A program made the translations under genes and the position numbers. Shown here piece after piece: positions 5,773 through 46,044 of a DNA stretch of 64,000 nt. The notes under the pieces are model-generated. The model was not told where the DNA came from, did no database searches, and worked only from the letters and a program-made list of their open reading frames with translations. Position 1 is the stretch's first letter, and every line of letters begins with the position of its first letter. Source of the stretch: Tricholomella constricta (taxonomy: Eukaryota > Basidiomycota > Agaricomycetes > Agaricales > Lyophyllaceae); NCBI GenBank assembly GCA_013368375.1, contig JAACJP010000037.1:124001-188000 (forward strand), given 5' to 3'.

Positions 5773-5993
5773 TGTAAGGGCACTTACTATCTTATCTACT
5801 AATCTGATCTAATCGTATCTTATCGACACGATTACGCTATTGTTTGGCAACACCTTCCGGTGTTGCCTATTTAATCCTCTACATTACATAATTAAATAGT
5901 AGACCTTGTACACCTATACGTAGCAATCGACAGACTTGTCAAGCTTACGTCTAGCGTGCACAGCAAGGTCCCCAATCTTGTAACTCCGTTACA
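5773..5993 (+). repeat. A1 5' LTR
   Basis: Begins TGTAAGGG and ends CCGTTACA. It contains a perfect 9-bp hairpin at 5846-5867 (ggcaacacc / ggtgttgcc, 4-nt loop) directly before tatttaat, which may serve as a TATA-like element. Paired with 45824-46044. Confidence 0.93.
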
Positions 5994-6101
5994 TTTTTTT
6001 AAGCTACCTTGCTTTCTATTGCTGCGTACCCACGACGTCACGCAGACCCACATTCCATTTAGAACACCCATCATCAAAAGAACCCACGAGATCCAGACCC
6101 G

Positions 6102-9100
6102 ATGACACCAACTCCCACACCCGGAAAGAGCCGAACCCCGGTCCTCGAGGATGCGCTCACAGCGCATCCTCCATCACAACCTCCACTGCAACCAGTGGAA
6201 GTCGGATCAGTCGCTGGTGGACAAAGTCCACCAGCGCAGAATACACTAGGATTAGAATCGGAGGAGTTGTGGCCGACAGCAAGCACCAATGTGCATGGGA
6301 GCTTGGCCGACGAATTGGCCAGGTCACAACGACCTGGCTCCACGTCGGGAAGCAGATGGCCAGACAGCCGTCTATCAAGCAGAGCGTTCGGGGTATCCAC
6401 CTTGAGCATAGTCAAGATGGAGTCGGACGAAGACGACTTGTCCGACCCCGAGGCCAATGAAGAAGAATGTCACGACCGCCCCTAACAACCACCCCTAAAA
6501 TCACATCCCACTACGCTTTCCCACGCCTACCCACTGTATATAACATGACACCACTTCTTTCCAGACTCTTCACCTCGATATTACCATTTGTTACGACTAG
6601 TTCCCGTTCCCGTTTCTTATTCTCTCTTACTCTCTCGGTTTACTCAGCTCCGCAATTGTATCACTTGTGCTCATTCGTTCGAACAAGCTCCGGTGAACAT
6701 CCTCGTCAACGCTCACGACCTCCGATTACCCGATCGGAGCCCGTCTTCCTTGACGACGTCAGGCCTGTCCGCTTCGGTGGTCTCGGAATAACTCCGCAAC
6801 CAGCGTGCTACGCAAGGTCCTAACAAAGAAGCCAGCGACAGGGAATTGCTGGCGCTAAAAGTGAAGCAATTCTGGGACACCACCGATGTTGCTAGCGAAC
6901 ATCGACGAAGACGACTGGAGGAACGAGCGGATAGGCTTGTTCTACGATCAACCGGAGCACAGTCCGTTGGAGAAATGGTCGCACAGGAGTATGCCGACCG
7001 ATACTTGGAAGCGCTGTCCGTAGTAGTTTCGGAATACAGGAAGAAGTACCCTAAGGGAACTTCGAATTCAGCAGTCAGTTCGATCGCTGGGACTTCTATA
7101 CCTAAGAAAGCTCCGCTCAACAAAGGAAAAGGTCGTTGGGATGACCTTTTCACTCCTCAAGCAGTGGCCTCTGGATCGAACCAGCCTCTTGATGAGGCTG
7201 CCATGGCAGTATCGGCGCTGCATCAAGCGCGCCAGTTAGGAGAATCTGACGACGATTATCGTCGTCGGGCCGCGGCAGCGAAACACGAAAGAATGACTCG
7301 TGAAGAGCACCTTGCGCAACCACAAGATTCCCGATGGGCCCCTGTTAGTGAGTCTACACTAGACCCACCCACTGAGCATAAGGACACGAATTCGCAACCA
7401 GCTGGCACTGAAAGCGTGCCAGCTATTCAAGTACCTCCGGAGGCTAAGGATGGCCGTGTTCCATTAGCGAAAGAGTGGAACAACCGGATCGCTTACCAGC
7501 GTCTGAGAAATGCTGATCTATCACGGAGCAAGTTCACGAATTATGACGACCAAGGAGTCGTCTTTGAAGGACATATGCCTGTGGATGAGATGGCGAGGCA
7601 ATGGGCCTCGCAAACTCAAGGTTCGGATGGTGGGTTGGTAACTGGATTTGAAGCCATCGAAAAGAATAATTCGACGGCGACAGCTAACGGTCGTCGAGAC
7701 ATGCGGGTTCGAATAAGTGAACCCGCGGAATGTGCGCAGCCCTGAGCTCAGACTCGAGGCTATTCAATGCCTGCTCTGATCCGCCGGAGTCAATCAATTG
7801 CGGATGGAATACATGCTGCCGGAGAGCAGCATAAAACTAAGATGCATGAGCGATTGCATCAATTAATGCACGAGCGCTTGTCAGTACGACTGTCGCTCCC
7901 GGACGGGATGAAATCTCGGCGTGCGGACTCAAAGTCCGTAGGCACTTATAGTGGAAGTGCAAAGTTTGGCGACCTAGAAGAATGGCTGTCGAGCCTCGTC
8001 GTTATGCTGGCAGTGAGTCAGTTTGGAGGAGAAGAACACGACCAAGAGCGCGTTCTGATAACATCCGAGTTTCTCGATGGCGAAGCTCGAAAGTGGTACA
8101 ATCGCCACGTTATACATGTGAACTGCGAGAAGCAGTTCTGGACGTTTGAAGACGTCGTACTTGGATTGTATGACCGGTTCGTGCTACCCTCAACCATGCA
8201 AGATGCTCGTAACGACTTCAATGCCGTTACTTACTCGGCGAGCAAAGGAATACAAGGTTTATATGATGACCTTGTGGACCATGCCATGAATATGGCAGCA
8301 AGAACGGACGATTGGACGTTCTTGGAGAAATTCCTCAAGACACTTCCACGTGAGATGCGGAAGGCATTATTCGATGACGGGCTATCACCCGAAATCAACA
8401 CGGCCCAAGAGTTCCTAGCGGTGGGCTTAGTACACCAAGCCACCCAGAAGACGGCTGATTACTTTGAGCAGAACATAACCGCTCAGCGAAGTCAACCGAG
8501 TCAAACGCGGAAACCAGATGGGGGGCGAGTAAACACCCCACAAAACAATTTCAACAGGCCTCGACGTGTGTATGGCGCACTTAATGAAAAACCATATGCC
8601 AAGCCAGCGTATCAGGATCAACCGGGACGTGGAGAGCAAAAGCCCCACGTCGAAAAACCAGCGATGAAGACAGGAGATCATCCGCGTTACGATCAAACCA
8701 AAAACCACGATCATCACAACCATCCTCCGGGTGAAGTGTGCTTTAATTGTGGAAAACTAGGGCATTTTGCAAAAGATTGCAAACAGCCCAAGAAACAGCG
8801 AGCGTTCCTACGGGCCGCACGTACAGCGGCACCTGACGCAGCAAGTGAGGCGGACAATGAAGATACTTCTCCCGAGGACCCGGACGGACGAGACAATGGA
8901 CGCCCTGATACAGAGGCGGACAATGAAGACGAAGGCGATGAGTTCGTAGACATGGAGGTCTACGAAAATGAATACTATGCTCAGGACGATGAGACCGAGC
9001 GTATGTTTGCAATGACAGAAGTAATTGCGTCAGAAGAACGCAATGATAAACCACCAGGTCGCAAAGTGAAAGTGCGGATGGGTAGGGACAAGATTGCTCG

Positions 9101-9551
9101 TCCCGTAGTTCCGATAAAGGACAAGGAGTGCCTTGTCACCTACATTAACGTAGGTGGACATGAGGCTTGGACCCTCTGGGATTCCGGGAGTACGACTACC
9201 GGACTTACGCCGTCATTCGCTCAAGTGGCCGATATTCGAGTGTTTCCGCTGGAGGATCCATTAATCCTCCAGCTCGGAACTAAAGGAAGTCGGGCCACAG
9301 TAAATTTTGGCACGACAGTGGAAGCCGCTCTTCCAGGGTTTAAAGGCAAGGTTTACATGGACCTTGCTAACTTTGATCGATACAACGTAATTATAGGCAC
9401 GCCGTTTATGTGCGCAAATAACGTCGGGCTGGACTTTAACCGTGACGAAGTTGTCGTCAATGGAGTCGCTACACCAGCGACTAAAGTAAAAATGGAGGAT
9501 ACCGATGGCCGAGTTAGATGCCATCGGTCATTGGAGAAACGAAGAGAATGA
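6102..9551 (+). pseudogene. A1 gag-protease, disrupted
   Basis: The ATG at 6102 lies 108 bp after the LTR at the same place as in A2. The frame is broken by a 358-bp solo LTR (6468-6825) and by a TGA at 7743-7745 where A2 has CGA. After 7767 the frame is open to the UGA at 9549. It encodes a capsid-like region, a CCHC zinc knuckle (CFNCGKLGHFAKDC, near 8740) and a retropepsin with LWDSGST near 9180. The family role is virion-like particle formation, RNA binding and polyprotein cleavage. Confidence 0.9.
6468..6825 (+). mobile_element. Solo LTR inserted in A1 gag
   Basis: A 358-bp segment absent from A2. It begins TGTCACGACC, ends GGTCCTAACA and is flanked by direct repeats AAGAA (6463-6467 and 6826-6830). 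A tgtatataac TATA-like motif lies near 6534. No internal region remains, so it is a recombination product of a full element. Its 3' third resembles the old LTR end at 5488-5602, so the two belong to related families. Confidence 0.9.
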
Positions 9552-9554
9552 CTA
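9549..9554 (+). promoter_or_regulatory. A1 UGA-CUA stop between gag-protease and pol
   Basis: The protease frame ends in TGA followed at once by CTA, and the same frame is then open into RT. An identical context is found in A2 (17869-17874). Confidence 0.75.
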
Positions 9555-10678
9555 AAAGTAACAGTAGAAGATGACAATGATCCTGATAACGAGGGTAGGC
9601 TGATAAACAGCCTACCGAAGGATCACCCAGCACTTCTATTATCCGATGAAGAGTTTCAAGAAACTCTTAAGGAGGGGGATAAGCCACCTCCAAAGAAGAG
9701 AAAACCCCAACGACAACAGCAGAAGGCACAAAACGAGCCTTCGAACGAACGAGCACGGACTCACGAGCCATGCGAAGAACGTCAGCGCGATAATGAAGCG
9801 CGTAAGACGAGCGGGGCCGATAAGGATATGGAATCAGAGCCGTATACGAATGCGAGTAATCGATCATTTTGGGATAGACCAAATCCACATCCACAATATG
9901 AGTGGATGTTCGACCCACGGATGCCGCAAGAATGGAACACAGTAATAGCATCAATGCGGGCTCACGAAGGAAGAAATGTAGGCACGCGAGGACAAGCGTA
10001 CCGAAATCCACGGCCTGAGGAAGTATCGGAGCCAACGGAAATGAATTTTCCGGTGAATATACAACGGGCTAAACGGCCGTTGTATCGGTTACCAGTGAAG
10101 GATGAGAGTGACTTTGCTCTCGTAAAACTACCAGCTAGGTTTGATGTTAAACCTAGCAATAAAGACACAGCGCACATTCGCGCTGCAAGAACGGTGAACA
10201 GAAAAGGTAAGGCATCCAATGGAGGCCTTACCGCGGAAGATTATCCACGACTTCGCCAGCAATGGCATGACGAATTCGAAGATATGGTGGGTGGTACGAA
10301 ACAACAGCTACCACCCTGGCGGGAAGTCAATCACGAGATTACTCTCGTCGACGATGAGAAACAGTACCAGTACCATGCACCGAGGTGCCCAATGTCCCTT
10401 CGCGAGGAATTCTACGCGAAGGTCAATCGGTATACAGACTCTATATGGTGGGAGCCTCGTTCGGTGAAGCAAGCAGCGCCGCTGCTATGTATCCCGAAAA
10501 AAGACGGCTCCCTGAGAACACCCTTGGACGCACGGCAGCGTAACGACAACACGATCAAGGACGTTACGCCCTTGCCAGACCAAGAAGTCATTTGCGAGGA
10601 TGTTGCCAGAGGGAAGATACGATCAAAGATTGACTTAACAGATGCGTACAAACAAGTACGCATCCTCGAGAAGGACGT
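9552..10678 (+). pseudogene. A1 pol, 5' fragment (linker and start of RT)
   Basis: Same frame as gag. A charged linker with a KKRK-type basic patch is followed by the N-terminal RT fingers (WWEPRSVKQAAPLLCIPKKDG) and the first palm motif SKIDLTDAYKQVRI. The frame stops where element B was inserted, 4 bp after the TSD start at 10675. It resumes at 39573. Confidence 0.92.
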
Positions 10679-11743
10679 TGATGAGCACCGTCCCGCGCTA
10701 TACACAGAGCCAGCCCATAATACGGACCTCAACCGCTGCGCCACAACGAACACACTCCCGAATACGACCGAAGCGCTAAACCGACCGACCGACAATACGA
10801 CAGACCGACCGACAATACGACAGACCGACCGACAATACGACCAAACGACCGACGTACCGACCAAGAGACAGAGTAACTTGAAACGCCAGTTCTTCTCCCT
10901 GGGTACACGGAGCACGGAACGCCGTATAACCTGTCAGCGACCGCGCACGTTTGTATGCCAAGGTCTCAACCCGGCGACAACCAAACCCGATTGGAAATTA
11001 CCCTAGGAAACACCTTGCCCAGCCATTCGCAGAGAGGATCCGGCCGCACCACGGAGTTCCGCCTCCAAGAGCCACTACCGATCGAAAAGCCGCCACCAAT
11101 CACACATCCGACCCGACGCCTCGAACCGATCAAAAGCCCCTTTGCCGAGCCAAGGAGCGCCACACTCTCTAAAAAGCGCCGCGTGGTACCAAGCTTGGCG
11201 ACGCTTGTCTCAATAAACCAGTAAAACACCTGCCTCGCCGGCCTGCGAGAGGCGAGTCGGTCACATAGTATAAAAACATACCCATGTACTACCTACCTCC
11301 CCCAGTGAATTACAGCCCGTATTTTCCCTCACACTCAGAGTGAATAGCTCGAAACCGTCGTCTCTGTCGTCTCTGCACCGTCCTCATCGTATAAACCGTC
11401 GCCACTGTCGTAAATCTCGTAACTGCCGTCTCTGTCGCCTCGTACTCGTCGCCCGAACCCGTGAGTTCTCCGTATTAACCCTGTTCGTCTCGTTGTCGCA
11501 TGACCGACACCCAAAGTCGCGTCGCCAACCCGTTCCACTCGGGAACGTCGCGTTCCATCGCCCCCGTCGCGTTGTTGTCGGTTCGACTAGCTACGAGTCG
11601 GATCGTCCCTTACCTTCGTCAAACAACCCTTACAAAGCCCTGCACACTCGCGTGTTTGGGAACTTTTAACATTTCTCGCCCCCCCATAGTTGTTAGTTGT
11701 TTTGTTGTTGTGCACAGCACCTACAGGCCTTCTAGCTCTATCA
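10679..11743 (+). repeat. B 5' LTR
   Basis: 1065 bp, colinear with 38508-39572 without indels. It carries three copies of a 20-bp tandem repeat (cagaccgaccgacaatacga, about 10781-10842) and a TATA box at 11269. An ATG at 11500 opens a frame that runs through U5 into gag; the same site is ACG in the 3' LTR. Confidence 0.93.
11269..11276 (+). promoter_or_regulatory. TATA box of the B LTR
   Basis: TATAAAAA followed about 30-60 bp later by pyrimidine-rich sequence; identical in the 3' LTR at 39098-39105. It is the likely U3/R promoter for the sense transcript. Confidence 0.6.
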
Positions 11744-14461: not shown

Positions 14462-14681
14462 TGTAAGGACGCCCACTATCTTATCTAATCTTGGTTATCT
14501 AATCGTATCTTATCGAGACGATTACGCTATTGTTTGGCAACACCTTCTGGTGTTGCCTATTTAATTCATTACATTAATTAAGTATAAACAACCTTGTACA
14601 CCTATACGTAGCAATCGACAGACTTGTCAAGCTTACGTCTAGTGTGAACAACAAGGTCCCAAATTCTGTAACCCCGTTACA
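14462..14681 (+). repeat. A2 5' LTR
   Basis: TGTAAGGACG..CCCCGTTACA. It contains hairpin 14536-14557 (9-bp stem) and a 7-bp stem taatcgt/acgatta around 14499-14525. Confidence 0.95.
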
Positions 14682-14790
14682 TTTTTTTAAGCTACCTTGC
14701 TTTCTATTGCTGCGTACCCACGACGTTACGCAGACCCACATTCCATTTAGAACACCCATCATCAAAAAGAACCAACGAGACCGAGACCCG

Positions 14791-17700
14791 ATGACAACAA
14801 CTCCCACATCCGGAAAGAGCCGAACTCCGGTCCTCGAGGATGCGCTCACAGCGCATCCTCCATCACAACTTCCACTGCAACCAGTGGAAGTCGGATCAGT
14901 CGCTGGTGGACAAAGTTCACCAGCGCAGAATACACTAGGAGTAGAATCGGAGGAACTTTGGCCAATAGCAAGCACCAATGTGCCTGGGAGCTTGGCCGAC
15001 GAATTGGCCAGGTCACATCGACCTGGCCCCACGGCGGGAAGCAGATGGCCAGACAGCCGTCTGTCGAATAGAGCGTTCGGGGCGTCCACCCTGAGCATAA
15101 TCAAGATGGAGTCGGACGAAGACGACTTGTCCGACCCCGAGGCTAATGAAGAAGAGGCCAGCGAAAGGGAACTGCTTGCGCTTCAAGTGAAGCAATTCTG
15201 GGACACCACCGATGTGGTTAGCGAGCATCGGCGAAGGCGACTGGAGGAACGAGCGGATAGGCTCGTTCTGCGATCTACCGGAGCACAATCCGTTGGAGAA
15301 ATGGTCGCACAAGCATATGCCGACCGATACTTGGAAGCGCTGTCCGTAGTAGTTACGGAATACAGGAAGAAGTACCCTAAGGGAACTTCGAATTCAGCAG
15401 TCAGTTCGATCGCTGGGACGCCTGTACCTAAGAAAGCCTCGTTCAACAAAGGAAAAGGTCGTTGGGATGACCTCTTCACTCCTCAAGCAGTGGCTGCCGG
15501 ATCGAACCAGCCTCTTGATGAGGCTGCCATGGCAGTATCGGCGCTGCATCAAGCGCGACAGTTAGGAGAATCTGACGACGATTATCGTCGTCGGTCTGCG
15601 GCAGCGAAGCGCGAAAGAATGACTCGTGAAGAGCATCTTGCGCAACCACAAGGATCCAAATGGGCCCCTGTTAGTGAGTCTACGTTAGACCCACCCACGG
15701 AACGTAAGTATACAACCACGCAAGCAGCTGGCGACGAAAGCGCGCCAGCTATTCAAGTACCTATGGATGCGAAGGATGGCCGTGTTCCATTAGCGAAAGA
15801 TTGGAACAACCGAGTCGCATATCAGCGTTTGAGAAACGCTGATTTATCACGGAGCAAGTTCACGAATTATGATGATCAAGGAGTCGTCTTCGAAGGACAT
15901 ATGCCCGTAGATGAGATGGCGAGGCAATGGGCCTCGCAAACTCAAGGTTCGGATGGTGGACTGGGAAATGGGGCCGTCGGAAAACATAATACGACGGCGA
16001 CGGCTAACGGCCGTCAAGACATGCGGGTTCGTATAAATGAACCCACTTCACACGCTCAGCCTCGATTTCAAAGTCGAGGCTACTCAATGCCTGACCCGAT
16101 TCGCAGGAGTCAATCAATTGCGGACGGAATATATGCTGCTGGAGAGCAGCATAAAACTAAGATGCACGAACGGTTGCATCAACTGATACACGAGCGACTG
16201 GCTGTACGCCTATCGCTCCCTGATGGTATGAAATCTCGCCGTGCGGACTCAAAGTCCGTAGGCACTTATAGTGGAAGCGCCAAGTTTGGCGAATTGGAAG
16301 AATGGCTAGCCAGCCTTGTCGTGATGCTAGCCGTGAGCCAGTTTGGAGGAGCAGAACGCGACCAAGAGCGCGTTCTGATAACATCTGAGTTCCTTGATGG
16401 TGAAGCTCGGAAATGGTACAATCGCCATGTTATCCATGTGAACCGCGAAAAGCAGTCCTGGACGTTTGAAGACGTCATACTAGGGCTGTACGATCGGTTC
16501 GTGCTGCCTTCAACCATGCAGGATGCTCGTAACGACTTTAACGCCGTTACCTATTCGGCGAGCAAAGGCATACAAGGTCTGTATGACGACCTTGTGGATC
16601 ATGCCATGAACATGGCAGCAAGAACGGATGATTGGACGTTCCTGGAGAAATTTCTCAAAACACTTCCGCGCGATATGCGGAAGGCATTATTCGATGACGG
16701 GCTATCACCCGAAATCAATACAGCCCAAGAGTTCCTAGCGGTGGGCCTAGCACTTCAAGCCACCCAGAAAACGGCTGATTACTTTGAGTGGACCATAACC
16801 GCTCAGCGAAGTCAACCGAGCCAAATGCGGAAACCAGATGGAGGGCGAGTAAACGCTCCACACAATACTTTCAACAGGCCTCGACGGGTGTATGGCGCAG
16901 TAAATGAAAAGCCATATGTCAAGCCAGCGTATCAGGATCAACCTGGACGTGGAGAGCAAAAGCCCCACGTCGAAAAACCAGCGATGAAGACAGGAGATCG
17001 TCCGCGTTACGATCAACCTAAAAACCACGATCATCACAACCATCCTCCGGGGGAAGTGTGCTTTAATTGTGGAAAACTAGGGCATTTTGCAAAAGATTGC
17101 AAACAGCCCAAGAAACAGCGAGCGTTCCTAAGGGCCGCACGTACAGCGGCACCTGACGCGGCAAGTGAGGCGGACGATGAAGACACGTCTCCTGAGGACC
17201 CGGACGGACGAGACAATGGACGCCCTGATACAGAGGCGGACAATGAAGACGAAGGCGATGAGTTCGTAGACATGGAGGTCTACGAAAATGAATACTATGC
17301 TCGGGACGATGAGACCGAGCGTATGTTTGCAATGACAGAAGTAATTGCGTCAGAAGAACGCAATGATAAACCACCAGCTCGCAAAGTTAAAGTGCGGACG
17401 GGGAGGGACAAAATTGCTCGTCCCGTAGTTCTGATAAAGGACAAGGAGTGCCTTGTCACCTACATTAACGTAGGTGGACATGAGGCTTGGACCCTTTGGG
17501 ATTCCGGGAGTACAACTACCGGACTTACGCCGTCATTCGCTCAAGTGGCCGATATTCGAGTATTTCCGCTGGAGGATCCATTAATCCTCCAGCTCGGGAC
17601 TAAAGGAAGTCGGGCCACAGTAAACTTTGGTACGACGGTGGAAGCCGCTCTGCCAGGGTTTAAAGGCAAGGTTTACATGGACCTTGCTAACTTTGATCGA

Positions 17701-17871
17701 TACGACGTGATTATAGGCACGCCGTTTATGCGCGCAAATAACGTCGTGCTGGACTTTAACCGTGACGAAGTGGTCGTCAATGGAGTCGCTATACCAGCGA
17801 CTAAGGTAAAAATGGAGGATACCGATGGCCGAGCTAGACGCCATCGGTCATTGGAGAAACGAAGAGAATGA
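14791..17871 (+). CDS. A2 gag-protease polyprotein
   Basis: 1026 residues. The ATG at 14791 is chosen because A1 has its ATG at the matching place; an in-frame upstream start would lie in the LTR. The acidic N-terminal third precedes a retrotransposon-gag capsid region (roughly residues 480-660, with WTFEDVILGLYDRFVLPSTM). Next come a basic linker, a CCHC zinc knuckle CFNCGKLGHFAKDC (near 17063), an Asp/Glu-rich spacer and a retropepsin with LWDSGST (near 17503) and the later IIGTPF strand. It packages element RNA and processes the polyprotein. It ends in TGA-CTA, after which the same frame continues into pol. No premature stop was found. Confidence 0.93.
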   Translation: MTTTPTSGKSRTPVLEDALTAHPPSQLPLQPVEVGSVAGGQSSPAQNTLGVESEELWPIASTNVPGSLADELARSHRPGPTAGSRWPDSRLSNRAFGASTLSIIKMESDEDDLSDPEANEEEASERELLALQVKQFWDTTDVVSEHRRRRLEERADRLVLRSTGAQSVGEMVAQAYADRYLEALSVVVTEYRKKYPKGTSNSAVSSIAGTPVPKKASFNKGKGRWDDLFTPQAVAAGSNQPLDEAAMAVSALHQARQLGESDDDYRRRSAAAKRERMTREEHLAQPQGSKWAPVSESTLDPPTERKYTTTQAAGDESAPAIQVPMDAKDGRVPLAKDWNNRVAYQRLRNADLSRSKFTNYDDQGVVFEGHMPVDEMARQWASQTQGSDGGLGNGAVGKHNTTATANGRQDMRVRINEPTSHAQPRFQSRGYSMPDPIRRSQSIADGIYAAGEQHKTKMHERLHQLIHERLAVRLSLPDGMKSRRADSKSVGTYSGSAKFGELEEWLASLVVMLAVSQFGGAERDQERVLITSEFLDGEARKWYNRHVIHVNREKQSWTFEDVILGLYDRFVLPSTMQDARNDFNAVTYSASKGIQGLYDDLVDHAMNMAARTDDWTFLEKFLKTLPRDMRKALFDDGLSPEINTAQEFLAVGLALQATQKTADYFEWTITAQRSQPSQMRKPDGGRVNAPHNTFNRPRRVYGAVNEKPYVKPAYQDQPGRGEQKPHVEKPAMKTGDRPRYDQPKNHDHHNHPPGEVCFNCGKLGHFAKDCKQPKKQRAFLRAARTAAPDAASEADDEDTSPEDPDGRDNGRPDTEADNEDEGDEFVDMEVYENEYYARDDETERMFAMTEVIASEERNDKPPARKVKVRTGRDKIARPVVLIKDKECLVTYINVGGHEAWTLWDSGSTTTGLTPSFAQVADIRVFPLEDPLILQLGTKGSRATVNFGTTVEAALPGFKGKVYMDLANFDRYDVIIGTPFMRANNVVLDFNRDEVVVNGVAIPATKVKMEDTDGRARRHRSLEKRRE

Positions 17872-17874
17872 CTA
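17869..17874 (+). promoter_or_regulatory. A2 readthrough stop UGA-CUA
   Basis: The only stop between protease and RT. The UGA CUA context is the one known to promote readthrough in alphaviruses and in fungal genes that gain peroxisomal isoforms (reported for Ustilago). It is conserved in A1. Confidence 0.75.
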
Positions 17875-20800
17875 AAAGTAACAGTAGAAGATGACGATGA
17901 TCCTGATAATGAGGGTAGGCCGATAAACAGCCTACCGAAGGATCATCCAGCACTTTTATTATCCGAGGAAGAGTTTCAAGAAACTCTTAAGGAGGGGGAT
18001 AAGCCACCTCCGAAGAAGAGAAAACCCCAACGACGACAGCAGAAGGCACAAAACGAGCCTTCGAACGAACGAGCACAGGTTGACGAGCCATGCGAAGAAC
18101 ATCAGCGCGATAATGAAGCGCGTAAGACGAGCGGGGCCGACAAGGATACGGAATCAGAGCCGTATACGAATACGAGTAATCGATCATTTTGGGATAGACC
18201 AAATCCACATCCACAATATGAGTGGATGTTCGACCCACGGATGCCGCAAGAATGGAACGCAGTAATAGCGTCAATGCGGGCTCACGAAGGAAGAAATGTA
18301 GGCACGCGAGGACAAGCGTACCGAAATCCACGGCCTGAGGAAGTATCGGAGCCAACGGAAATGAATTTTCCGGTGAATATACAACGGGCTAAACGGCCGT
18401 TGTATCGGTTACCAGTGAAGGATGAGAGTGACTTTGCTCTCGTAAAACTACGAGCTAGGTTTGATGTTAAACCTAGCAATAAAGACACAGCGCACATTCG
18501 CGCTGCAAGAACGGTGAACAGAAAAGGTAAGGCACCCAATGGAGGCCTTACCGCGGAAGATTATCCACGACTTCGCCAGCAATGGCATGACGAATTCGAA
18601 GATATGGTGGGTGGTACGAAACAACAGCTACCACCCTGGCGGGAAGTCAATCACGAGATTACTCTCATCGATGATGAGAAACAGTACCAGTACCACGCGC
18701 CGAGGTGCCCAATGTCCCTTCGCGAGGAATTCTACGCGAAGGTCAATCGGTATACGGATTCTAAATGGTGGGAGCCTCGTTCGGTGAAGCAAGCAGCGCC
18801 GCTGCTATGTATCCCGAAAAAAGACGGCTCCCTGAGAACACCCTTGGACGCACGCCAGCGTAACGATAACACGATCAAGGACGTTACGCCCTTGCCAGAC
18901 CAGGAAGTTATTCGCAAAGATGTCGCTAGGGGAAAAATACGGTCCAAAATTGACTTAACGGATGCGTATGAACAAGTACGCATCCTTGAAAAAGATGTAC
19001 ATAAAACCGCCTTCGCAACGATAGCGGGAACATACATCAGTAACATCATGCAAATCGGGGACTGTAATGCTCCCGCGACATTTCAACGATTAATGACGTC
19101 CATCTTTCGGGACGTCATTGGGAAGTTCATGCATGTATACTTGGACGATATATTCATATTCTCGAACTCTATTGAGGAACATGAAGACCACTTGCGAGTT
19201 GTGTTCGAACGATTACGCGAACAATCGCTCTACCTTAAATGGAAGAAATGCGAATTGTATTCGGATCGCGTTGATTGCCTTGGTCATATTATTGACGACC
19301 AAGGAATTCACCCTGACGCCGACAAACTGGCACGGATCCGTGACTGGAGGATACCACGGAATTACAACGATATCCAACGATTCGTTGGACTTGTTAACTA
19401 TCTGGGACAGTTTCTCCCAGATATATCTGCATACACTGGTCCACTAATGGCGATGACCGAGAATGGGTCGCCATTTTATTGGAGACCAATTCATCAGCGA
19501 TGCTTTGAAATGATAAAGCATATATGCTGCACAACGCCAATTATTCGGCCGATTCAACCGAAGACAGGCGAACCAATTTGGATTATCTGTGACGCCTCCA
19601 AGTCAGGCGTCGGTGCGATGTATGGACAAGGACCTACATGGATCCAAGCCCAGCCGGCTGGATTCATGTCCAAAAAATTCACTAATGCACAGCAGAATTA
19701 TGCTGTGCATGAACTCGAGACCTTAGCTATTCTCGAAGCGTTACTTAAGTGGGAGGATAAACTTGTGGGCTATAAAATCCACATCATTACCGACCATAAA
19801 GCCCTCGAATTCTTTAAGACCCAGGTGAATTTATCACCTAGGCAGCGTCGATGGATGGAATACATGTCGCGATTTAACTTCGACATAACCTATGTGAAAG
19901 GCGAACTGAACAAAGTCGCCGACTGTCTATCGCGATACTTCGAGAGCGATAACCATCAAGATCGTTACGACGTCCACGACTTCGTAGCTGCTGATGCTAG
20001 AATCGATCCTACTGGTGAAGATCTACCAGTACCACGATACCATGAAATCGTGGAAAAAGTAGTTGAGATTCGAGCGATGAAAGACGTAGAAATACGTCGA
20101 AGCAAGCGTCTTCAAGAACGCCAGGAGGATCGAGATGTCGAGGCTCAGATAATGGAGGCTGCGGCACCAAGTACCGCATCCGGAACATCGTCACACCCTC
20201 AGAAAAGCATGAGTCCAACCGAACGGGAACGTACGGTCGGAGATATTGTCCTCGGGAGGGACACAGTTTCTCCTCCCCCAGACAAAACGGATGAAAAGAT
20301 CCGTCACGACGTTATCCTTGGATACCCAAAGGATAAACTATTTTCAGTTATTCTCGCTAACCCCAGGGACTTTCGTACGTTCACCACGAAAGACAATCTC
20401 ATTTGGACCACGAACGCTATAAATGATAGCGTTCTATGTATACCGCGAGAACCCGAGCTCATCACCACAATTATTGAGCAAGCCCATAAAACTATGGGCC
20501 ATTTCGGTGCCGAACGGACTACTGAATATATTCGACGATGGTATTGGTGGCCATCACTAGCCACGACCGTGCGTACGTTTTGTAAAACGTGCGAGTACTG
20601 CCAGCAGATCAAGACGTCGAATCAAAAACCGTCAGGGAAACTACACTCCCTGCCAGTACCAACTAAGCCTTGGGATTCTATCGGAATGGACTTTATCGGT
20701 CCATTTCCAGAATCAAAGGGATATAATTACCTATGGGTAGTAATTTGTCATATGACGAGTATGGTGCATATGATACCCATACATACGACGATGACAGCAG

Positions 20801-21771
20801 CCCAATTATCATGGGTATACTTACGGGAGATCGTCAGGCTCCATGGCCTGCCAAGCTCGATCGTAAGCGATCGAGACTCTAAGTTTACTTCACGCTGGTG
20901 GCGCGAACTACATAAGTTATTAGGAGCTAAGCTCCTAATGTCGACATCTTTCCATCCTCAGACGGATGGACAAACGGAGCGAGCCAATCGTAGTATTGGC
21001 CAGATATTTCGTGCCGTTGTGAGGCATGACCAAAAGGATTGGGTAGATTGTATACCCATGGCTGAGTTCGCGATAAATGCGAGCGTATCGGCTACTACCA
21101 AGTTCGCTCCATTTGAGCTGAATAGTGGATACATGCCGTCCATGTTGAAAGAGATACACTCAGACAGCGTAATACCGAAGGGAATTCGAGAGTATGCGGA
21201 ACGCGCATTGCAGAATATAGCGGAGGCGCATGACGCTATAATCGAAGCGCGCGTATTTCAAACGCGCGAGGCAAACAGGCGCCGATCCGCTGGTCCAGAA
21301 ATAAAGGGGGGAGACTTGGTGTATTTATCCACCAAGAACTTGAACCTCCCCAAGGGACGCGCCCGTAAATTGTGCCCGAAATTCGTCGGGCCCTACAAAG
21401 TGCTGAAGGCCATGCCAGACACGTCGAACTATACGTTGGAATTACCTACGGCACTCATGGAGCGCCGGATACATCCAACATTTCATATATCGATGTTGCG
21501 CCCATACTACGCAACGAATGATACAATGTTCCCTAATAGAACTCATCCGGAGCCCTACGATTTTGGGGCGCCGGATAATCACGAATGGTTTGTAGAAGAT
21601 ATTTTGGGCCATAGATGGACCCAAAATAATACTGTGGAATATCAGGTTAGGTGGAGCCTGGGAGACACCACCTGGGAACCGCACACCAATTGTAACAAGT
21701 TAGCGGCACTGGATCGCTACTTGGAACTACAAGGGGTGAAGAGCGCGTCGAGATTACCGCGACGAACCTAG
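17872..21771 (+). CDS. A2 pol: RT, RNase H, integrase, chromodomain
   Basis: 1299 residues in the gag frame, probably made by readthrough of the UGA. In order: charged linker with KKRKP; RT with SKIDLTDAYEQV and the catalytic MHVYLDDIFIF (about 19131); RNase H with IICDASKSGVGAM, ELETLAILEAL and ITDHKALEFF; integrase with an HHCC finger (HKTMGHFGAERT...CKTCEYCQ), DFIGPF, SIVSDRDSKF and TDGQTERANRS supplying the D,D,E triad; a GPY/F-like region (FVGPYKVLKAM); and a C-terminal chromodomain (EWFVEDILGHRW..VEYQVRWS..TTWEPHTNC). Chromodomains of this type direct insertion to heterochromatin in chromoviruses. All catalytic residues are present. Confidence 0.95.
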   Translation, partial: LKVTVEDDDDPDNEGRPINSLPKDHPALLLSEEEFQETLKEGDKPPPKKRKPQRRQQKAQNEPSNERAQVDEPCEEHQRDNEARKTSGADKDTESEPYTNTSNRSFWDRPNPHPQYEWMFDPRMPQEWNAVIASMRAHEGRNVGTRGQAYRNPRPEEVSEPTEMNFPVNIQRAKRPLYRLPVKDESDFALVKLRARFDVKPSNKDTAHIRAARTVNRKGKAPNGGLTAEDYPRLRQQWHDEFEDMVGGTKQQLPPWREVNHEITLIDDEKQYQYHAPRCPMSLREEFYAKVNRYTDSKWWEPRSVKQAAPLLCIPKKDGSLRTPLDARQRNDNTIKDVTPLPDQEVIRKDVARGKIRSKIDLTDAYEQVRILEKDVHKTAFATIAGTYISNIMQIGDCNAPATFQRLMTSIFRDVIGKFMHVYLDDIFIFSNSIEEHEDHLRVVFERLREQSLYLKWKKCELYSDRVDCLGHIIDDQGIHPDADKLARIRDWRIPRNYNDIQRFVGLVNYLGQFLPDISAYTGPLMAMTENGSPFYWRPIHQRCFEMIKHICCTTPIIRPIQPKTGEPIWIICDASKSGVGAMYGQGPTWIQAQPAGFMSKKFTNAQQNYAVHELETLAILEALLKWEDKLVGYKIHIITDHKALEFFKTQVNLSPRQRRWMEYMSRFNFDITYVKGELNKVADCLSRYFESDNHQDRYDVHDFVAADARIDPTGEDLPVPRYHEIVEKVVEIRAMKDVEIRRSKRLQERQEDRDVEAQIMEAAAPSTASGTSSHPQKSMSPTERERTVGDIVLGRDTVSPPPDKTDEKIRHDVILGYPKDKLFSVILANPRDFRTFTTKDNLIWTTNAINDSVLCIPREPELITTIIEQAHKTMGHFGAERTTEYIRRWYWWPSLATTVRTFCKTCEYCQQIKTSNQKPSGKLHSLPVPTKPWDSIGMDFIGPFPESKGYNYLWVVICHMTSMVHMIPIHTTMTAAQLSWVYLREIVRLHGLPSSIVSDRDSKFTSRWWRELHKLLGAKLLMSTSFHPQTDGQTERANRSIGQIFRAVVRHDQKDWVDCIPMAEFAINASVSATTKFAPFELNSGYMPSMLKEIHSDSVIPKGIREYAERALQNIAEAHDAIIEARVFQTREANRRRSAGPEIKGGDLVYLSTKNLNLPKGRARKLCPKFVGPYKVLKAMPDTSNYTLELPTALMERRIHPTFHISMLRPYYATNDTMFPNRTHPEPYDFGAPDNHEWFVEDILGHRWTQNNTVEYQVRWSLGDTTWEPHTNCNKLAALDRYLELQGVKSASRLPRRT
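18381..18741 (+). repeat. Sample of the hairpin array in A2 pol
   Basis: Consecutive perfect inverted repeats at 18381-18403 (7-bp stem acaacgg), 18424-18441 (5), 18454-18477 (9, gctaggttt), 18488-18505 (6), 18526-18552 (8, ggtaaggc), 18610-18635 (7), 18664-18678 (6) and 18718-18741 (7, cttcgcg). The same density holds across gag, pol, the third ORF, the 3' UTR and the LTRs of the A family. Confidence 0.9.
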
Positions 21772-21899
21772 AATGTGGCGCGGTCATGTGACCACGGCGA
21801 TCAAGAAAATTACATAACCATCAAAAGTTATGACAGAAGGTTAAATATGTTTGGCGCTAGACGCGCAACCGATTTTCAACCCTCTCAACACAAACCAAC

Positions 21900-24853
21900 A
21901 TGTACCCCAGCCAAGTACCAACCTCCAGCAACGACGCGATTCGGGGCGGCGACAGCCGCACCGACCAGCAAAATTTGAACCCGGGGCCGAGTTCAAGTGG
22001 GGAGGGAGCGCAGGGGCGCGCGGAAATGCGCCCCTGCCCCCAACTTACATGGGCTCGCAGCCCCAATTATACCAATATCCTCCGGTTGGCCATATGAGCC
22101 AACCGCCCCATCAGGGGCAACAAACATTTCCGACGGTTGGCCATATGAGCCAACCGCACCACCAAGGGCAACAACCACCTATGGGTGGTTTTTACCCGCC
22201 AGGGCTGGCATTCCAACAGATGCCATCAATGGCGGGTTTCATGGGGTACCCGCAACCGACGTGGTACCCCCAAATGCCCATGCAGCCTGTACCGCACAAT
22301 ACGCGGTACAACGAATCGGAGAAGATGGAGGTAGACGACCAAAGTCGTCTGCAAGCAAATGTCCCGCCGGCGCAAGTGGTGCGCGGCGAACCGGTGCGGC
22401 AACATGTTGCACCGAATGCAGACGACAAAGCGTCGTCGGCGTCGAGTTCGCGGAGGATGGCAGACGATCGTAGAGTATCGCCTGCGTCAAGTTCGAGGAG
22501 ACCATTCGCAGACGATGGTCTCCTTTCTTCTCTCTTGGATCGATTGGAAGACGCGGGTATTCACCGCGAATTTTGTGATTTCTTGGACGATGGAATGGCG
22601 CAGCTGGTTATAACCCAGCTGCTTGATGCATACGATGGAGTTTGCGCGGATTTGAGACGCGTGAAAGCGAGAGAAGCGGCCATGGCTGAGCAACTCAGCC
22701 TGGCAAGAAAACGGCCGGCAGTAGCGTCGCCGGATCGCGGGGAGGGACCATCGTCCCGACCCATAAAAAGGCAGCAAATGGAGGTGCGTCAAGAAGAACG
22801 CACCTCATACGAGCCGCGACGACAAGAGAGGAGCGAGCCCAGGCGTCCGGAACGACGCCTGGAACAGGAGAATCGGCGGTACAACCGCCACCCCGACCAG
22901 GAAGTGTGGCGTGACGAACGCCCACTTGATTATGGTTCTCAACGGGAAGAGCGCCGAGAGGATCAAGGGACGCGCGAAGTGCGCCCCTTACCTGCTCGAG
23001 AAATCGAGCGCACGGCGTCGACATCGTCGACGTCAGCGGAAGCAAAGCCGCAAAACCTATCCGGAGCGTTACCGCCCCCGGGAGAAAGCCGGGTGCGGAA
23101 CCCAGAACGAGGTTCTCAGAAGAAGGAACCTGTTGGCAAATATACTTTGCCAGCGCCAGCCCCTGCACCACCTAGTACGATGGTGCAGCCCCCAACGCCG
23201 CCATCCAAAGGCAAACAGAAGGCATCGGATCCATATGCCGAGGCTATGGATGAATCGGACTGGGGCGAGTCGTCTGACGACGACAAGCCTGTCAGCAAGA
23301 AGAAGGCTGCCGGGCAAAAGCAGCATCGCGAGAATATGGCTCGCAAAGCTGAGAAGGAGATGCCGGGGCGGATCCCTGACGAGCTCGGGGTGGTCTTCAT
23401 CAACGACCGCCACGAGAGGGACAACCGTTTTTGGGATATGCTAGTGCGGACGATATATGTATCGTCCGCCCAGAATCGTGCCTACGCACTAGGCACCGCA
23501 GCGCGAGTGTCCGAAAGCGAGTTGGGGACGGGACACAATTCTCGTCCCCCATCGGGACGGCTATATGCCGTCGCACCACGCGGGTTCCCAATGAACCCTC
23601 GTGAAGTTGATCAGTTGTATGCACTGATCAACGATCGGCGCCCCGGCGTGACGGATGAAGAGCGGGCAGAGGCCTTTATGCTCTTTAGGGAGTTCCGGCG
23701 AGTCTCCCTCTCGGTAGCGCCCCATTTGCGCGACCGATCCATGGCTCGAGCAGCCATGGATGAATTTAGAAGCGTCAACCGACCGTTCGATACACGGTCA
23801 CCCATTTGGCAGGCCGCGCCAATTAGGCGGCCTGGGAGGGCATTCGAATATAGGCCGGACAAGCCTACACGAGGCGCTGGCCTGCCTCAGCCAGGCCCCG
23901 ACCATGCCCTCGATGTCGAGCACTGGTGCCGACATATGATTCACCATGGGCGTATTGGTTCAAAGAACCAATACGGAGGAATCGTCATGGACTACCGGTT
24001 CCGCGTACATAGGCGCGGAACTTGGGGATACTTGTTGGCGAATGTACTAGCGCCAACTACCCACAGCATGCGGTCATGGTTCATGCGACTTTTCGCGACC
24101 ATTACTGCGCGGCCATACCTCTACGCAGAGGCTGTGGCTGCCTATAACGAGGCCAACCCAGATCGGCCTTTCACACCGATCGAAGGCCCTGAGGTTACCA
24201 TACCTCGCATCCAAGTGATCCCTCCGGAGGTGCGGATCACTGAACAAGGTGTCTTGCAACACCTTATCAACATTGGTATTCCAGTAAGCTGGATACACCA
24301 TAGCTACACTTATGGTCTACATTATTTGGACCATAACTACTCTAACTCAGGTCCCTATAAGGACCTGTTCCGCAATGTTGACGACGATCGAGTTCGTCGT
24401 CTAGATGAAATGGGTGTTCCGCCCGCCATCCCTGAGTGGGATGGGTGGTACCATCCCACCACCGACGACATCACGCGCATCCAAACACTGATGCACGTGG
24501 AATTCCAGACCGAATCACTAGACTGTCTAGTGAGTTCGGAATGGATGTTTGTGGGTGAAGACCCACACTTCCGAGGACTCCGTGTTCGGGTGGGGGAATA
24601 TCTCCCCCCAGGCCTGCATCACCCAGCTTCATCAGGATCGACGTCCATCAACGTCGAAATGGCGGACCCGGCGGCAGCTATACCTGCCCCCGCGACACCC
24701 TCCACAGTCGTGGCAGCTCCAACTGGAGCTACCGAAACCCAAGTGGACCCCGTGTCGGCCCTTACAGGGCCTTTATCACTGGCGGTGATTACCACCAGCC
24801 AGGGTCTGGTGGACAACAACACCACCGACCCCGACACAGTGATGGAGTCATAG
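21900..24853 (+). pseudogene. A2 third ORF (ORF3), frameshifted near its start
   Basis: The sense ORF lies between integrase and the 3' LTR, the env position. ATG at 21900. Relative to A1 (42475-45447) one base is missing near 22030, so the first 43 or so codons are out of frame with the remainder, which is open to 24853. The protein has a Pro/Gln-rich N-terminus with two GHMSQPxHQGQQ repeats, an Arg/Glu-rich middle, a basic patch (SKKKAAGQKQHRENMARKAE) and a conserved C-terminal half rich in Trp, His and Tyr (for example DVEHWCRHMIHHGRIGSKNQ). No signal peptide, membrane segment or known enzyme motif is visible. I do not recognise the family. Confidence 0.75.
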
Positions 24854-25209
24854 GTCGGGGAGACAACTTAATCCCCCCGTCAACGAACCGACCTCGACAC
24901 GTAGGGCGTACCGCCGGGCCGACCGCCATTGTCAGGTGCAGACCACCTGACTCCCGAGGAGCAATCCGCAGGTTGCGTATTAACGCAACATTGGATGTCC
25001 TCACCACCATTCTTTGCCGCACGGCACTTTGAGGCCGTGCAGTGGCGCTAATGCATCCACTACTCGTTAAGTCAAGAATACGTATTATACCTACGTATTC
25101 TTGCATTATTTGATAGGTCTAGGTCGCCGGGACCTAGACCCTCCTTTTACTCTCTTTTTCTGCCCAACTCCCTGGTGAAGATCGCTACACGCGATCTTAA
25201 AGGGGGGTA
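24854..25209 (+). other. A2 3' untranslated region and polypurine tract
   Basis: No ORF. Strong hairpins at 24931-24951, about 25070-25105 (11-bp stem aagaatacgta), 25116-25140 (10-bp stem) and about 25188-25201. The tract ttaaaggggggta immediately precedes the 3' LTR and is the likely plus-strand primer. Confidence 0.75.
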
Positions 25210-25429
25210 TGTAAGGACGCCCACTATCTTATCTAATCTTGGTTATCTAATCGTATCTTATCGAGACGATTACGCTATTGTTTGGCAACACCTTCTGGTG
25301 TTGCCTATTTAATTCATTACATTAATTAAGTATAAACAACCTTGTACACCTATACGTAGCAATCGACAGACTTGTCAAGCTTACGTCTAGTGTGAACAAC
25401 AAGGTCCCAAATTCTGTAACCCCGTTACA
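25210..25429 (+). repeat. A2 3' LTR
   Basis: Same sequence as 14462-14681; followed by the TSD GATAC. Confidence 0.95.
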
Positions 25430-25434
25430 GATAC

Positions 25435-25505
25435 CGACCTTCGCGCGCGGACAACGTCGCCGCCCCAAGACCGACGTAAATTTTCGTATACTCTCGAGGA
25501 AATAA
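25435..25505 (+). CDS. End of B gag-protease after A2
   Basis: Completes the protease frame (PTFARGQRRR...), ending TAA 25503-25505. The -1 frame is open through the same stretch into pol. Confidence 0.85.
25478..25484 (+). promoter_or_regulatory. Candidate -1 ribosomal frameshift site of B
   Basis: In the gag-protease frame the bases read gtA AAT TTT c, a canonical X XXY YYZ heptamer. It lies 18 bp before the gag stop and inside the overlap with the -1 pol frame. A downstream pseudoknot was not assessed. Confidence 0.6.
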
Positions 25506-34196: not shown

Positions 34197-34568
34197 CCGC
34201 TCGACTCCCGGCTACTCGTATACCCCCTTTTTAATAAACATTTCGATATCTATCCCTCTCTGGTTTCTTCACGCCCTAAATCTACCCAACGTCCCACGAC
34301 CCGACCGTTCGCGAAGTTCAAACACCCTGAACGACAGTCTTTCCTTTCGTTCTTTTAAACCCCCACTCAAGTTCCAAGATCACACACTTAATGCCAGACT
34401 CCGCAGGAGAACCACACGACATATATTACATTTTTTTAAAGAAAAGCCCATTTACGGGCACCGACAAGTCCACAGCACGAGATATATACGTGCGACGCCT
34501 CTAGCGGAGGAACGACGCAAACACGACACCAAGAAGAGTCCAGACACGACGCCGACCCCCACCTACAA
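34197..34568. other. Convergent gap between pol copy 2 and gene X
   Basis: Second copy of 29249-29620; no ORF, AT-rich centre with taataaac. Confidence 0.45.
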
Positions 34569-39572: not shown

Positions 39573-42349
39573 ACGTACACAAGACCGCCTTTGCAACGAT
39601 AGCGGGAACATACGTTAGCAACATAATGCAGATCGGGGACTGTAACGCCCCCGCAACATTTCAACGATTAATGACGTCAATTTTTCGGGACGTCATTGGG
39701 AAGTTTATGCACATATACTTGGACGACATATTCATATTCTCGAACTCCATCGAAGAACATGAAGATCATCTTCGAGTAGTGTTCGAGCGATTACGCGAAC
39801 AGTCCCTTTATTTGAAGTGGAAGAAATGCGAACTATATTCGGATCGCGTCGATTGCCTTGGTCATATAATCGACGACCAAGGAATTCATCCCGACGCCGA
39901 TAAATTGGCACGGATTCGCGATTGGAGGACTCCACGGAATTACAACGATATACAGCAATTCGTTGGACTGGTTAATTATCTGGGTCAATTCCTCCCAGAT
40001 ATATCCGCGTACACTGGGCCACTAATGGCGATGACCGAGAATGGGTCGCCATTCTATTGGAGACCAATTCATCAACGATGCTTTGAAATGATAAAGCATA
40101 TATGTTGCACGACGCCAATTATTCGGCCTATTCAACCGAAGACAGACGAACCAATTTGGATTATATGTGACGCCTCCAAGTCAGGCGTCGGTGCGATGTA
40201 TGGCCAAGGACCTACATGGATCCAAGCTCAGCCGGCTGGATTTATGTCCAAAAAATTCACGAATGCACAGCAGAATTACGCCGTGCATGAACTCGAAACC
40301 TTAGCTATTCTCGAAGCATTACTTAAGTGGGAGGATAAACTTGTGGGTTATAAAATCCACATCATTACCGACCACGGAGCCCTCGAATTCTTTAAGACCC
40401 AGGTGAATTTATCACCTAGGCAGCGTCGATGGATGGAATACATGTCGCGATTTAACTTCGACATTACCTATGTGAAAGGCAAACTGAATAAAGTCGCCGA
40501 TTGTCTATCGCGATACTTCGAGAGCGATAACCATCAAGATTGTTACGACGTCCACGACTTCGTAGCTGCCGATGCTAGAATCGATCCTACTGGTGAAGAT
40601 CTACCAGTACCACGATACCATGAAATCGTGGAAAAAGTAGTTGAGATTCGAGCGATGAAAGACGTAGAAATACGTCGAAGCAAGCGTCTTCAAGAACGCC
40701 AGGAGGATCGAGATGTCGAAGCTCAGATAATGGAGGCTGCGGCACCAAGTATCGCATCCGGGCCATCGTCACACCTTCAAAAAAGCAAGAGGCCAACCGA
40801 ACGGGAACGTACGGTCAGAGATATGGTCCTCGGAAGGGACACAGTTGCCCCTCCCCCAGACAAAATGGATGAGAAGATCCGTAATGACGTTATCCTTGGA
40901 TACCCAAAGGATAAACTATTTTCAGTGATTCTCACTAACCCAACGGACTTTCGTACGTTCACCACGAAAGACAATCTCATTTGGACCACGAACGCTATAA
41001 ATGATAGCGTTCTATGCATACCGCGAGAACCCGAGCTCATCACGTCAATTGTTGAGCAAGCCCATAAAACTATGGGCCATTTCGGTGCCGAACGGACTAC
41101 TGAATATATTCGACGATGGTATTGGTGGCCATCACTAGCCACGACTGTTCGTACGTTTTGTAAAACGTGCGAGTATTGCCAGCAGATCAAGACGTCAAAT
41201 CAGAAACCGTCAGGGAAACTACATTCCCTGCCAGTACCCACTAAGCCTTGGGACTCTATCGGAATGGACTTTATCGGTCCATTTCCAGAATCAAAGCGAT
41301 ATAACTATCTATGGGTAGTAATTTGTCGTATGACGAGTATGGTGCATATGATACCCATACATACGACGATGACGGCAGCCCAATTATCATGGGTATACCT
41401 ACGGGAGATCGTCAGGTTACATGGCCTGCCAAGCTCGATCGTAAGCGACCGAGATTCTAAGTTTACTTCGCGCTGGTGGCGCGAACTACATAAATTATTA
41501 GGAGCTAAGCTTCTAATGTCGACATCTTTCCATCCTCAGACGGATGGACAGACGGAGCGAGCCAATCGTAGTATTGGCCAGATATTTCGCGCCGTTGTAA
41601 GGCATGACCAAAAGGATTGGGTAGATCGTATACCCATGGCTGAGTTCGCGATAAATGCGAGCGTATCGGCTACCACCAAGTTCGCTCCATTTGAGTTGAA
41701 TAGTGGATACATGCCGTCCATGTTGAAAGAGATACGCTCAGACAGCGTAATACCAAAGGGAATTCGAGAATACGCTGAACGCGCATTGCAGAACATAGCG
41801 GAGGCGCATGACGCTATAATCGAAATGCGCGTATTTCAAACGCGCGAGGCAAACAGGCGTCGATCCACTGGTCCGGAAATAAAGGGGGGTGACTTGGTAT
41901 ATTTATCTACCAAGAACTTGAACCTTCCCAAGGGACGCGCCCGGAAATTATGTCCGAAATTTGTCGGGCCCTACAAAGTATTGAAGGCCATGCCAGACAC
42001 GTCGAACTATACGCTGGAATTACCTACGGCGCTTCTGGAGCGTCGAATACATCCAACATTTCACATATCGTTGTTGCGCCCATACTACGCAACAAACGAT
42101 GCAATGTTCCCTAATAGAACTCACCCGGAGCCCTATGATTTTGGGGCGCCGGACAATCACGAATGGTTTGTCGAAGAGATTTTGGGCCATAGATGGACCC
42201 AAAATAATAAAGTGGAATACCAAGTCAGGTGGAGCCTAGGTGACACCACCTGGGAATCACACACCAATTGTAACAAGTTAGCGGCATTGGACCGCTACTT
42301 GGAATTGCAAGGGGTGGGCAGCGCATCGAGGTTGCCGCGACAAACCTAG
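39573..42349 (+). pseudogene. A1 pol, 3' fragment (RT palm to chromodomain)
   Basis: Continues A1 pol after B. It includes YLDDIFIF, RNase H, integrase HHCC and D,D,E motifs, and the chromodomain ending VGSASRLPRQT. The frame is intact from the junction to the stop, about 90% or more like A2. One difference is TDHGALEFF versus TDHKALEFF in RNase H. It cannot be expressed with gag because B separates it. Confidence 0.92.
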
Positions 42350-42474
42350 AATGTGGTGCGGTCATGTGATCACGGTGATCAGAAAAATTACATAACCATC
42401 AAAAGTTATGACAGAAGGTTAAATATGTTTTGGCGCTAGGACGCGCAACCAAATTTTCAACCAACAACCACAAC

Positions 42475-45447: not shown

Positions 45448-45823
45448 GTCGGGGAGACAACTTAATCCCCCTGTCAACGAACCGACCTCGACACGCAGGA
45501 GGTATCGTCGGGACGACCGCCATTGTAAGGTGCAGACTACCTTACTCCCGAGGAGCAACCCGCAGGTCGCGTACTAAAATATATGCAACACCGGATGTCC
45601 TCAATCCCATGCCACCTCGGGCGGCACTTGGAGGCCGTGTAGTGGAACTATTGTCTCCACTATGTATTCGGTCATGAATACGTACCAGTAATACATATTT
45701 ATATGCATGCGATATTGGGTGTAGGTCGCCGGGACCTACACCCTCCCTCTTGTCTTATTTCTATTATTATTTATTGCCTTACTCCCTGGTGAAGATCGCT
45801 ACTAGCGATCTTAAAGGGGGGTA
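45448..45823 (+). other. A1 3' untranslated region and polypurine tract
   Basis: No ORF. Hairpins at 45525-45545 and 45717-45743 match A2 positions with compensatory base changes. The tract aaaggggggta precedes the LTR. Confidence 0.75.
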
Positions 45824-46044
45824 TGTAAGGGCGCTTACTATCTTATCTACTAATCTGATCTAATCGTATCTTATCGACACGATTATGCTATTGTTTGGCA
45901 ACACCTTCCGGTGTTGCCTATTTAATCCTCTACATTACATAATTAAATAGTAGACCTTGTACACCTATACATAGCAATCGACAGACTTGTCAAGCTTACG
46001 TCTAGCGTGCACAGCAAGGTCCCCAATCTTGTAACTCCGTTACA
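45824..46044 (+). repeat. A1 3' LTR
   Basis: 221 bp, pairs with 5773-5993; followed by TSD CCTTT. Confidence 0.93.

Follow-up and report, generated by a model that had tools for sequence, protein, structure and literature searches.

What maintains a dense run of short perfect hairpins along the entire length of a retrotransposon? The question is raised by a 64,000-nucleotide stretch of the genome of the fungus Tricholomella constricta (assembly GCA_013368375.1, contig JAACJP010000037.1, positions 124,001 to 188,000 of the forward strand), here called the window and numbered from its first letter, which holds the long terminal repeat (LTR) retrotransposon A2. A2 and its kin carry short perfect hairpins at about ten times the chance density over their whole length, and comparisons among copies and families make it very probable that natural selection, acting largely via synonymous codon choice, maintains them. 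A preliminary description of the locus had offered two explanations, namely genome-scale ordered RNA structure (GORS) under selection and a palindrome-making mutational process such as template switching during reverse transcription.

Hairpins were counted where a perfect stem of 7 bp or more encloses a loop of 1–20 nt, overlaps being excluded. A2 contains 113 of them (51, 28, 19, 12, 2 and 1 with stems of 7, 8, 9, 10, 11 and 12 bp, respectively), while dinucleotide shuffling predicts approximately 10, summed over gag, pol, open reading frame (ORF) 3, the 3′ untranslated region (UTR) and the LTR. The three ORFs account for 102 stems, compared with approximately 13 in shuffles that preserve both the protein and the codon usage; the synonymous-codon shuffles average 3.8, 4.3 and 4.9 stems for gag, pol and ORF3 and reach maxima of 7, 8 and 10 among 50 shuffles, far below the observed counts (Table 1). 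Because synonymous-codon shuffling destroys the hairpins, the excess depends on codon choice. Local composition is ruled out as their cause by the shuffles together with the hairpin-poor neighbours of A2, whose ORFs stay near expectation (4 and 3 stems in element B, with 3.6–3.8 expected; 3 and 2 in the C region, with 1.6–4.1 expected; and 2 in the ORF at 11479, with 2.2 expected). The preliminary description is borne out on this point, as it is in placing hairpins in gag, pol, ORF3, 3′ UTR and LTR alike and in regarding the related element A1 as hairpin-rich. All ten hairpins that it listed are present where it placed them, seven with the correct stem length and three with stems 1 bp longer (14868–14891, 10 bp; 19092–19119, 10 bp; 19399–19423, 9 bp), and its stem cluster at 18381–18741 is real, with six stems of 7 bp or more, including those at the edges, rather than five.

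For loops of 3–12 nt, stems of 1–4 bp show no excess in A2, and the enrichment by exact stem length is 1.4-fold at 5 bp, 3.8-fold at 6 bp, 8.6-fold at 7 bp, 17-fold at 8 bp and 54-fold at 9 bp. The excess is limited to loops of about 1–12 nt, with none clear beyond 20 nt. The cut-off in A2 is sharp (13 hairpins with 12-nt loops against 1.1 expected, and 2 with 13-nt loops against 1.4), and loops of 21–25 nt are rarer than expected (3 against 10.7), whereas the related families A′ and A″, defined below, lack this edge; in A″ there is some enrichment at loop lengths of 41–60 nt (33 stems of 7 bp or longer against 16.0). The recurrence every 45–60 bp given in the preliminary description holds as a density but not as a period. 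Gaps between stems of at least 6 bp average 44 nt with a coefficient of variation of 0.92, and the centres of stems of at least 7 bp lie on average 96 bp apart; with gaps near-random, a fixed hairpin period is ruled out.

The mean folding z-score in 150-nt windows is −2.75 for A2, −1.99 for A′ and −2.5 to −2.9 for A″, compared with 0.00 for B and −0.15 for a further family, E; the C region is intermediate (−1.08 in 200-nt windows). The minimum folding energy difference (MFED) in 348-nt windows is 28.1% for A2, 19.5% for A′ and 23.1% for A″ against a dinucleotide null, and 26.1%, 17.2% and 19.9%, respectively, against a synonymous null, while controls range from −1.3 to 7.4%. Over the whole of A2 the MFED is 26.9%, and it exceeds 10% in 58 of 61 windows.

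The hairpin-rich condition extends to relatives of A2 elsewhere in the genome. Copies of family A were collected with 1 kb of A2 as a DNA query (40 of 167 candidates scored, 94–100% identity), and a protein search with the reverse transcriptase (RT) region scored 142 of 803 candidates. RT identity to A2 falls into three levels, approximately 91–100% for A, 81–85% for A′ and 67–69% for A″, plus one pseudogene at 72%. The 16 A loci, which include some copies twice and of which L001 and L039 are A2 itself, hold 28–39 hairpins per approximately 4 kb with 2.4–4.6 expected, and hairpin density is approximately 3 per kb in A′ and 4–6 per kb in A″. In comparison, thirty loci matching the RVT_1 profile (L009–L038) hold 0–2 hairpins with 1.6–4.8 expected; these look largely like a single family, E, and so serve as one control family rather than thirty. 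Family E lies below the shuffle expectation, with mostly 1 hairpin against about 3. A protein search with pol found 454 relatives at E ≤ 1e-100, and the organisms named among the 120 matches listed include Phanerochaete, Trametes, Mycena, Agrocybe and Phlebia, all of them mushroom-forming or wood-decay Agaricomycetes; two scans of viral contigs found no relatives. Two A copies look like mosaics between subfamilies: L054 stands midway between clades I and II, and L059 matches in two pieces, at 90.6% and 82.6%. Among L047, L049 and L051, some indels between copies delete whole hairpins or one arm, as if copying had skipped over them.

Density is kept across A, A′ and A″, and individual hairpins turn over. 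In codon-aligned pol, only 3–5 of the 36 A2 hairpin centres are common to A′ or A″ (1.6–2.6 expected), while 15 of 24 hairpins are common to L048 and L050, both copies of A″. Constraint was measured by a three-way test, in which stems are defined in one lineage and divergence is measured between two others; naive pairwise divergence was dropped because it is biased by the selection of stems that are intact in one copy. At third codon positions of pol in family A, divergence in stems is 0.176, 0.123 and 0.062, compared with 0.280, 0.216 and 0.152 outside them (p = 0.002, 0.009 and 0.015), and A″ shows the same direction with p between 0.035 and 0.27. Pooling the pol comparisons, stratified for degeneracy, for the base itself and for an adjacent C or G, gives an odds ratio of 0.57 for stems (z = −5.5, an optimistic value as the comparisons share sequences) and of 0.96 for loops. 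In gag and ORF3, with codon positions pooled, stems are less diverged in 13 of 13 comparisons, six of them at p < 0.05. Mutational cold spots are unsupported as the cause of this slowness: of the differences private to single copies, which mostly arose after insertion, 21 of 123 fall in stems (site counts predict about 15), whereas the stems of the third lineage contain 6 of the 171 differences fixed between clades I and II (12.2 expected), a contrast with p = 0.012. Stem sites are slow, loop sites are not, and the stems of young copies take up mutations unhindered; the pattern argues for selection, and that part of the first explanation in the preliminary description is upheld.

Palindrome-making by the element's own reverse transcriptase, in which fold-back copying would write one arm into the other and selection on the protein would act as a filter, could account for perfect Watson–Crick stems without a preference for G.U over A.C and for the strand symmetry of folding, and the restriction of the hairpins to one element clade makes an element-encoded factor conceivable. 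Known quasi-palindrome template-switch mutagenesis would likewise yield perfect inverted repeats with short loops, but it predicts changes in one arm, which is not what the gained hairpins show. Gains were defined as hairpins perfect in one lineage with at least two pairs missing in both others (55 gap-free cases; in gag of A″ the polarity is weaker, as L048 differs at 32–33% of sites). Pairs with a single change are distributed evenly over the arms (48 changed on the 5′ side, 50 on the 3′ side). Of the 30 informative gains, 20 mix changes in both arms and 10 are confined to one arm, against 10.8 expected under independence. The clearest gain, at 19172–19197, is fixed in clade II and was built by five synonymous substitutions in the stem, divided two and three between the arms, which leave the protein as it was. 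Third codon positions account for most of the derived changes (99 of 167), and near-identical copies are told apart by isolated single-base differences that do not cluster. With arm changes mixing as independence predicts, template switching is rejected as the hairpin source, contrary to the second explanation in the preliminary description, and we regard palindrome-making by the reverse transcriptase as highly improbable.

Several results nevertheless weigh against selection on ordered RNA structure. No hairpin is strictly conserved between families, the stratified pol comparisons of A″ are individually marginal (z = −1.6 to −2.0), and 7 of the 13 gag and ORF3 comparisons are non-significant. 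Covariation is weak: pairs changed on both sides are only 1.24 times as frequent as in a slid control, and 78 of 135 of them are still Watson–Crick (approximately 48% expected), as would follow if hairpins mostly come and go rather than being repaired. In A2, helices with one G.U number 28 and those with one A.C 39 (12.7 and 14.5 expected), and the sense and antisense strands fold equally well in A2 (z = −2.75 and −2.78), in A-II and in A″. Because G.U is no better than A.C and the strands are equal in A2, an RNA nature of the structure is only tentative for A, so that the proposal of genome-scale RNA structure stands as regards selection and has mixed support as regards RNA.

These last observations fit a role at the DNA level, in which hairpins in single-stranded complementary DNA (cDNA), or cruciforms, would shield it, help direct its synthesis or impede the exchange of strands among copies; stems in the LTRs fit it as well. 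Against it, the sense strand of A′ folds better than the antisense strand (z = −1.99 versus −1.32, p = 2e-4, in 150-nt windows), and helices of A′ with one G.U exceed expectation (9 against 2.65), unlike those with one A.C (4 against 4.0). The A′ copy L047 leans the same way (17 with G.U versus 13 with A.C; 8.7 and 11.0 expected), and in 200-nt windows the sense and antisense z-scores are −2.62 versus −1.56 for A′ and −3.49 versus −2.87 for L048. A hint of sense bias appears in A-III (p = 0.09). In the A″ copies the two kinds of helix are about level (40 with G.U and 40 with A.C in L048, 31 and 27 in L050). When single internal mismatches are counted, a stricter measure, A″ favours G.U (9 versus 3) and the A copies do not (3 versus 5). 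At least one family thus looks selected as RNA, while A carries a stricter, strand-symmetric form of the structure; we consider a DNA-level role unlikely. Dispersed packaging or assembly signals, with the Gag or ORF3 protein binding many hairpins and condensing the RNA into a particle, would suit the presence of hairpins throughout the transcribed element (gag, pol, ORF3 and 3′ UTR) and their freedom to shift position. However, we saw no loop motif, tetraloop class or stem sequence common to the hairpins, the spacing is irregular, A lacks G.U tolerance and its antisense strand folds equally, so that we consider this role quite unlikely.

What selection would favour, in our preferred reading, is local self-complementarity of approximately 6–12 bp wherever it is attainable, and not particular hairpins. 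Each strand, that is, the genomic RNA and in A equally the antisense RNA or cDNA, would then fold on itself in pieces. Hairpins of 6–12 bp are too short for Dicer, and strands folded in this way would pair poorly with Argonaute-bound small RNAs or with complementary strands; such hindrance to small RNAs on either strand would account for the fact that both strands matter in A. The host genome contains several matches to Argonaute Piwi and RNA-dependent RNA polymerase domains, and these, with the published role of compact structure elsewhere, lend plausibility by analogy to the suggestion that the hairpins shield the element from RNA silencing, which we hold as a tentative possibility. The combined reading, of selection together with shielding, is one we favour slightly. 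More speculative, and in our judgement doubtful, is that a clade of these retrotransposons has recast all of its sequence, coding and non-coding, by way of synonymous codons into perfect hairpins that fold on both strands, with sense RNA, antisense RNA and cDNA all self-paired, as a cis-acting defence against homology-based silencing that would differ from the sense-RNA structure of viruses.

Genome-wide ordered structure has been described for positive-strand RNA viruses in two reports (PMC3950689, PMC7642675), the former of which describes viral transcripts with such structure as poorly sensed in vertebrate cells. Of the five GORS features examined, A2 shows four: folding energy above that of shuffled controls throughout, many consecutive local unbranched stem-loops with short uninterrupted helices in place of long-range pairing, pairings poorly conserved between relatives, and less variable paired sites; the fifth, a sense-RNA structure that accepts G.U, is absent in A2 and differs among the families. 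Unlike the viral genomes, A2 is an LTR retrotransposon of a fungus and passes through DNA, its stems are perfect and its loops mostly no longer than about 12 nt, and it has no G.U preference and equal strands, with A′ sense-favoured and A″ mixed. Its MFED of 27–28% also lies above the highest value quoted in PMC7642675 for a vertebrate RNA virus, 23.4% (with about 15% for SARS-CoV-2), a comparison that is approximate as that work used 350-base fragments, RNAfold and dinucleotide-preserving shuffles with a different shuffling program. Among LTR retrotransposons, the genomic RNAs of yeast Ty1 and Ty3 resemble A2 in having structured regions within coding sequence, but PMC11381356 describes these as a mosaic, with structured regions of low reactivity in SHAPE (selective 2′-hydroxyl acylation analysed by primer extension) occupying up to 30% of the RNA, in contrast to the nearly uninterrupted folding excess of A2. 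Viroids offer a parallel for function, as compact structure is proposed (PMC3185485) to protect them from the RNA-induced silencing complex; they are non-coding and rod-like or branched there, whereas A2 has small local hairpins in coding sequence. Apart from the yeast Ty1 and Ty3 probing, our literature search, which is weak evidence as most subscription journals lie outside it, returned no account of a retrotransposon tiled with hairpins or carrying ordered structure over its full length.

With its LTRs, gag and a pol that encodes RT, RNase H and integrase in that order, A2 is a Ty3/gypsy LTR retrotransposon (Table 1); a C-terminal chromodomain, a chromovirus trait, is suggested by a weak Chromo match (21.3 bits, under the 25.1 cut-off). 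Gag and pol share a frame split by a single TGA (17869–17874 in A2, and likewise in L047, L048, L049, L050 and L051), followed by CTA in A and A″ or CTC in A′ in every one of the six copies read. The sequence TGA-CTA is known to permit stop-codon readthrough, and pol may be expressed in this way. ORF3 has two homologues among 7989 candidates scored, both in Lyophyllum (62% and 42% identity), and the shimeji homologue is fused to a tannase-like annotation; the Pfam profile search of ORF3 gave no matches, and its AlphaFold model is uninformative (mean predicted local distance difference test score 34.9).

The halves of A1 (5773–46049) are separated by a stretch between direct repeats at 10679–10978 and 38508–38807, which holds A2 and the B copies, near-identical, in direct orientation and approximately 4.95 kb apart (25391–34791). 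As A1 is split around this stretch, the insertions are nested. Farther along, at 50597–55654, lie two arrays of approximately 163–175-bp tandem repeats in inverted orientation, with arms of up to 438 nt that are 95% complementary; the arrays are palindrome-rich themselves and together look like a large foldback element. They also score high for hairpins, from a cause different from that in A2.

Table 1. Features of A2 and A1 in the window (stems are perfect and at least 7 bp unless a length is given)
Feature	Position	Strand	Remarks
A1 5′ part, diverged relative of A2, interrupted	5773..10666	+	33 stems in 6792–10677 (3.6 expected)
A2, hairpin-rich Ty3-type LTR retrotransposon	14462..25429	+	113 stems
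A2 5′ LTR, 220 bp	14462..14681	+	identical to 3′ LTR; ends TGT...ACA; insertion flanked by 5-bp repeat GATAC
A2 gag frame (stop to stop, TGA end)	14578..17871	+	CCHC zinc knuckle; 30 stems
A2 example hairpin	14836..14860	+	11 bp stem, 3-nt loop
A2 pol frame	17872..21771	+	RT, RNase H, integrase, SH3_Tf2-1; 36 stems
A2 example hairpin	18960..18985	+	9 bp, within conserved RT region
Hairpin gained in clade II (e.g. L053)	19172..19197	+	perfect 7-bp stem; absent in A2 and L059
Hairpin retained between clades I and II	21315..21336	+	via double change G-C to A-T
A2 ORF3, 1002 aa	21845..24853	+	without Pfam match; 36 stems
A2 3′ untranslated stretch, 356 bp	24854..25209	+	6 stems (0.3 expected)
Stem in A2 3′ untranslated stretch	25073–25103		12 bp
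Stem in A2 3′ untranslated stretch	25116–25140		10 bp
A2 3′ LTR	25210..25429	+	2 stems (0.2 expected)
A1 3′ part	39575..46044	+	pol ORF 39308–42349: 22 stems
A1 ORF3	42412–45447	+	32 stems

The A elements combine a stronger predicted signal with many near-identical copies, graded families and a single host that also carries hairpin-poor elements. Because hairpin-rich and hairpin-poor elements face the same host, the function of ordered structure should be directly testable here. If selection on the hairpins is confirmed, the synonymous sites of these transposons would be under pervasive selection, which matters for the dating of their copies.

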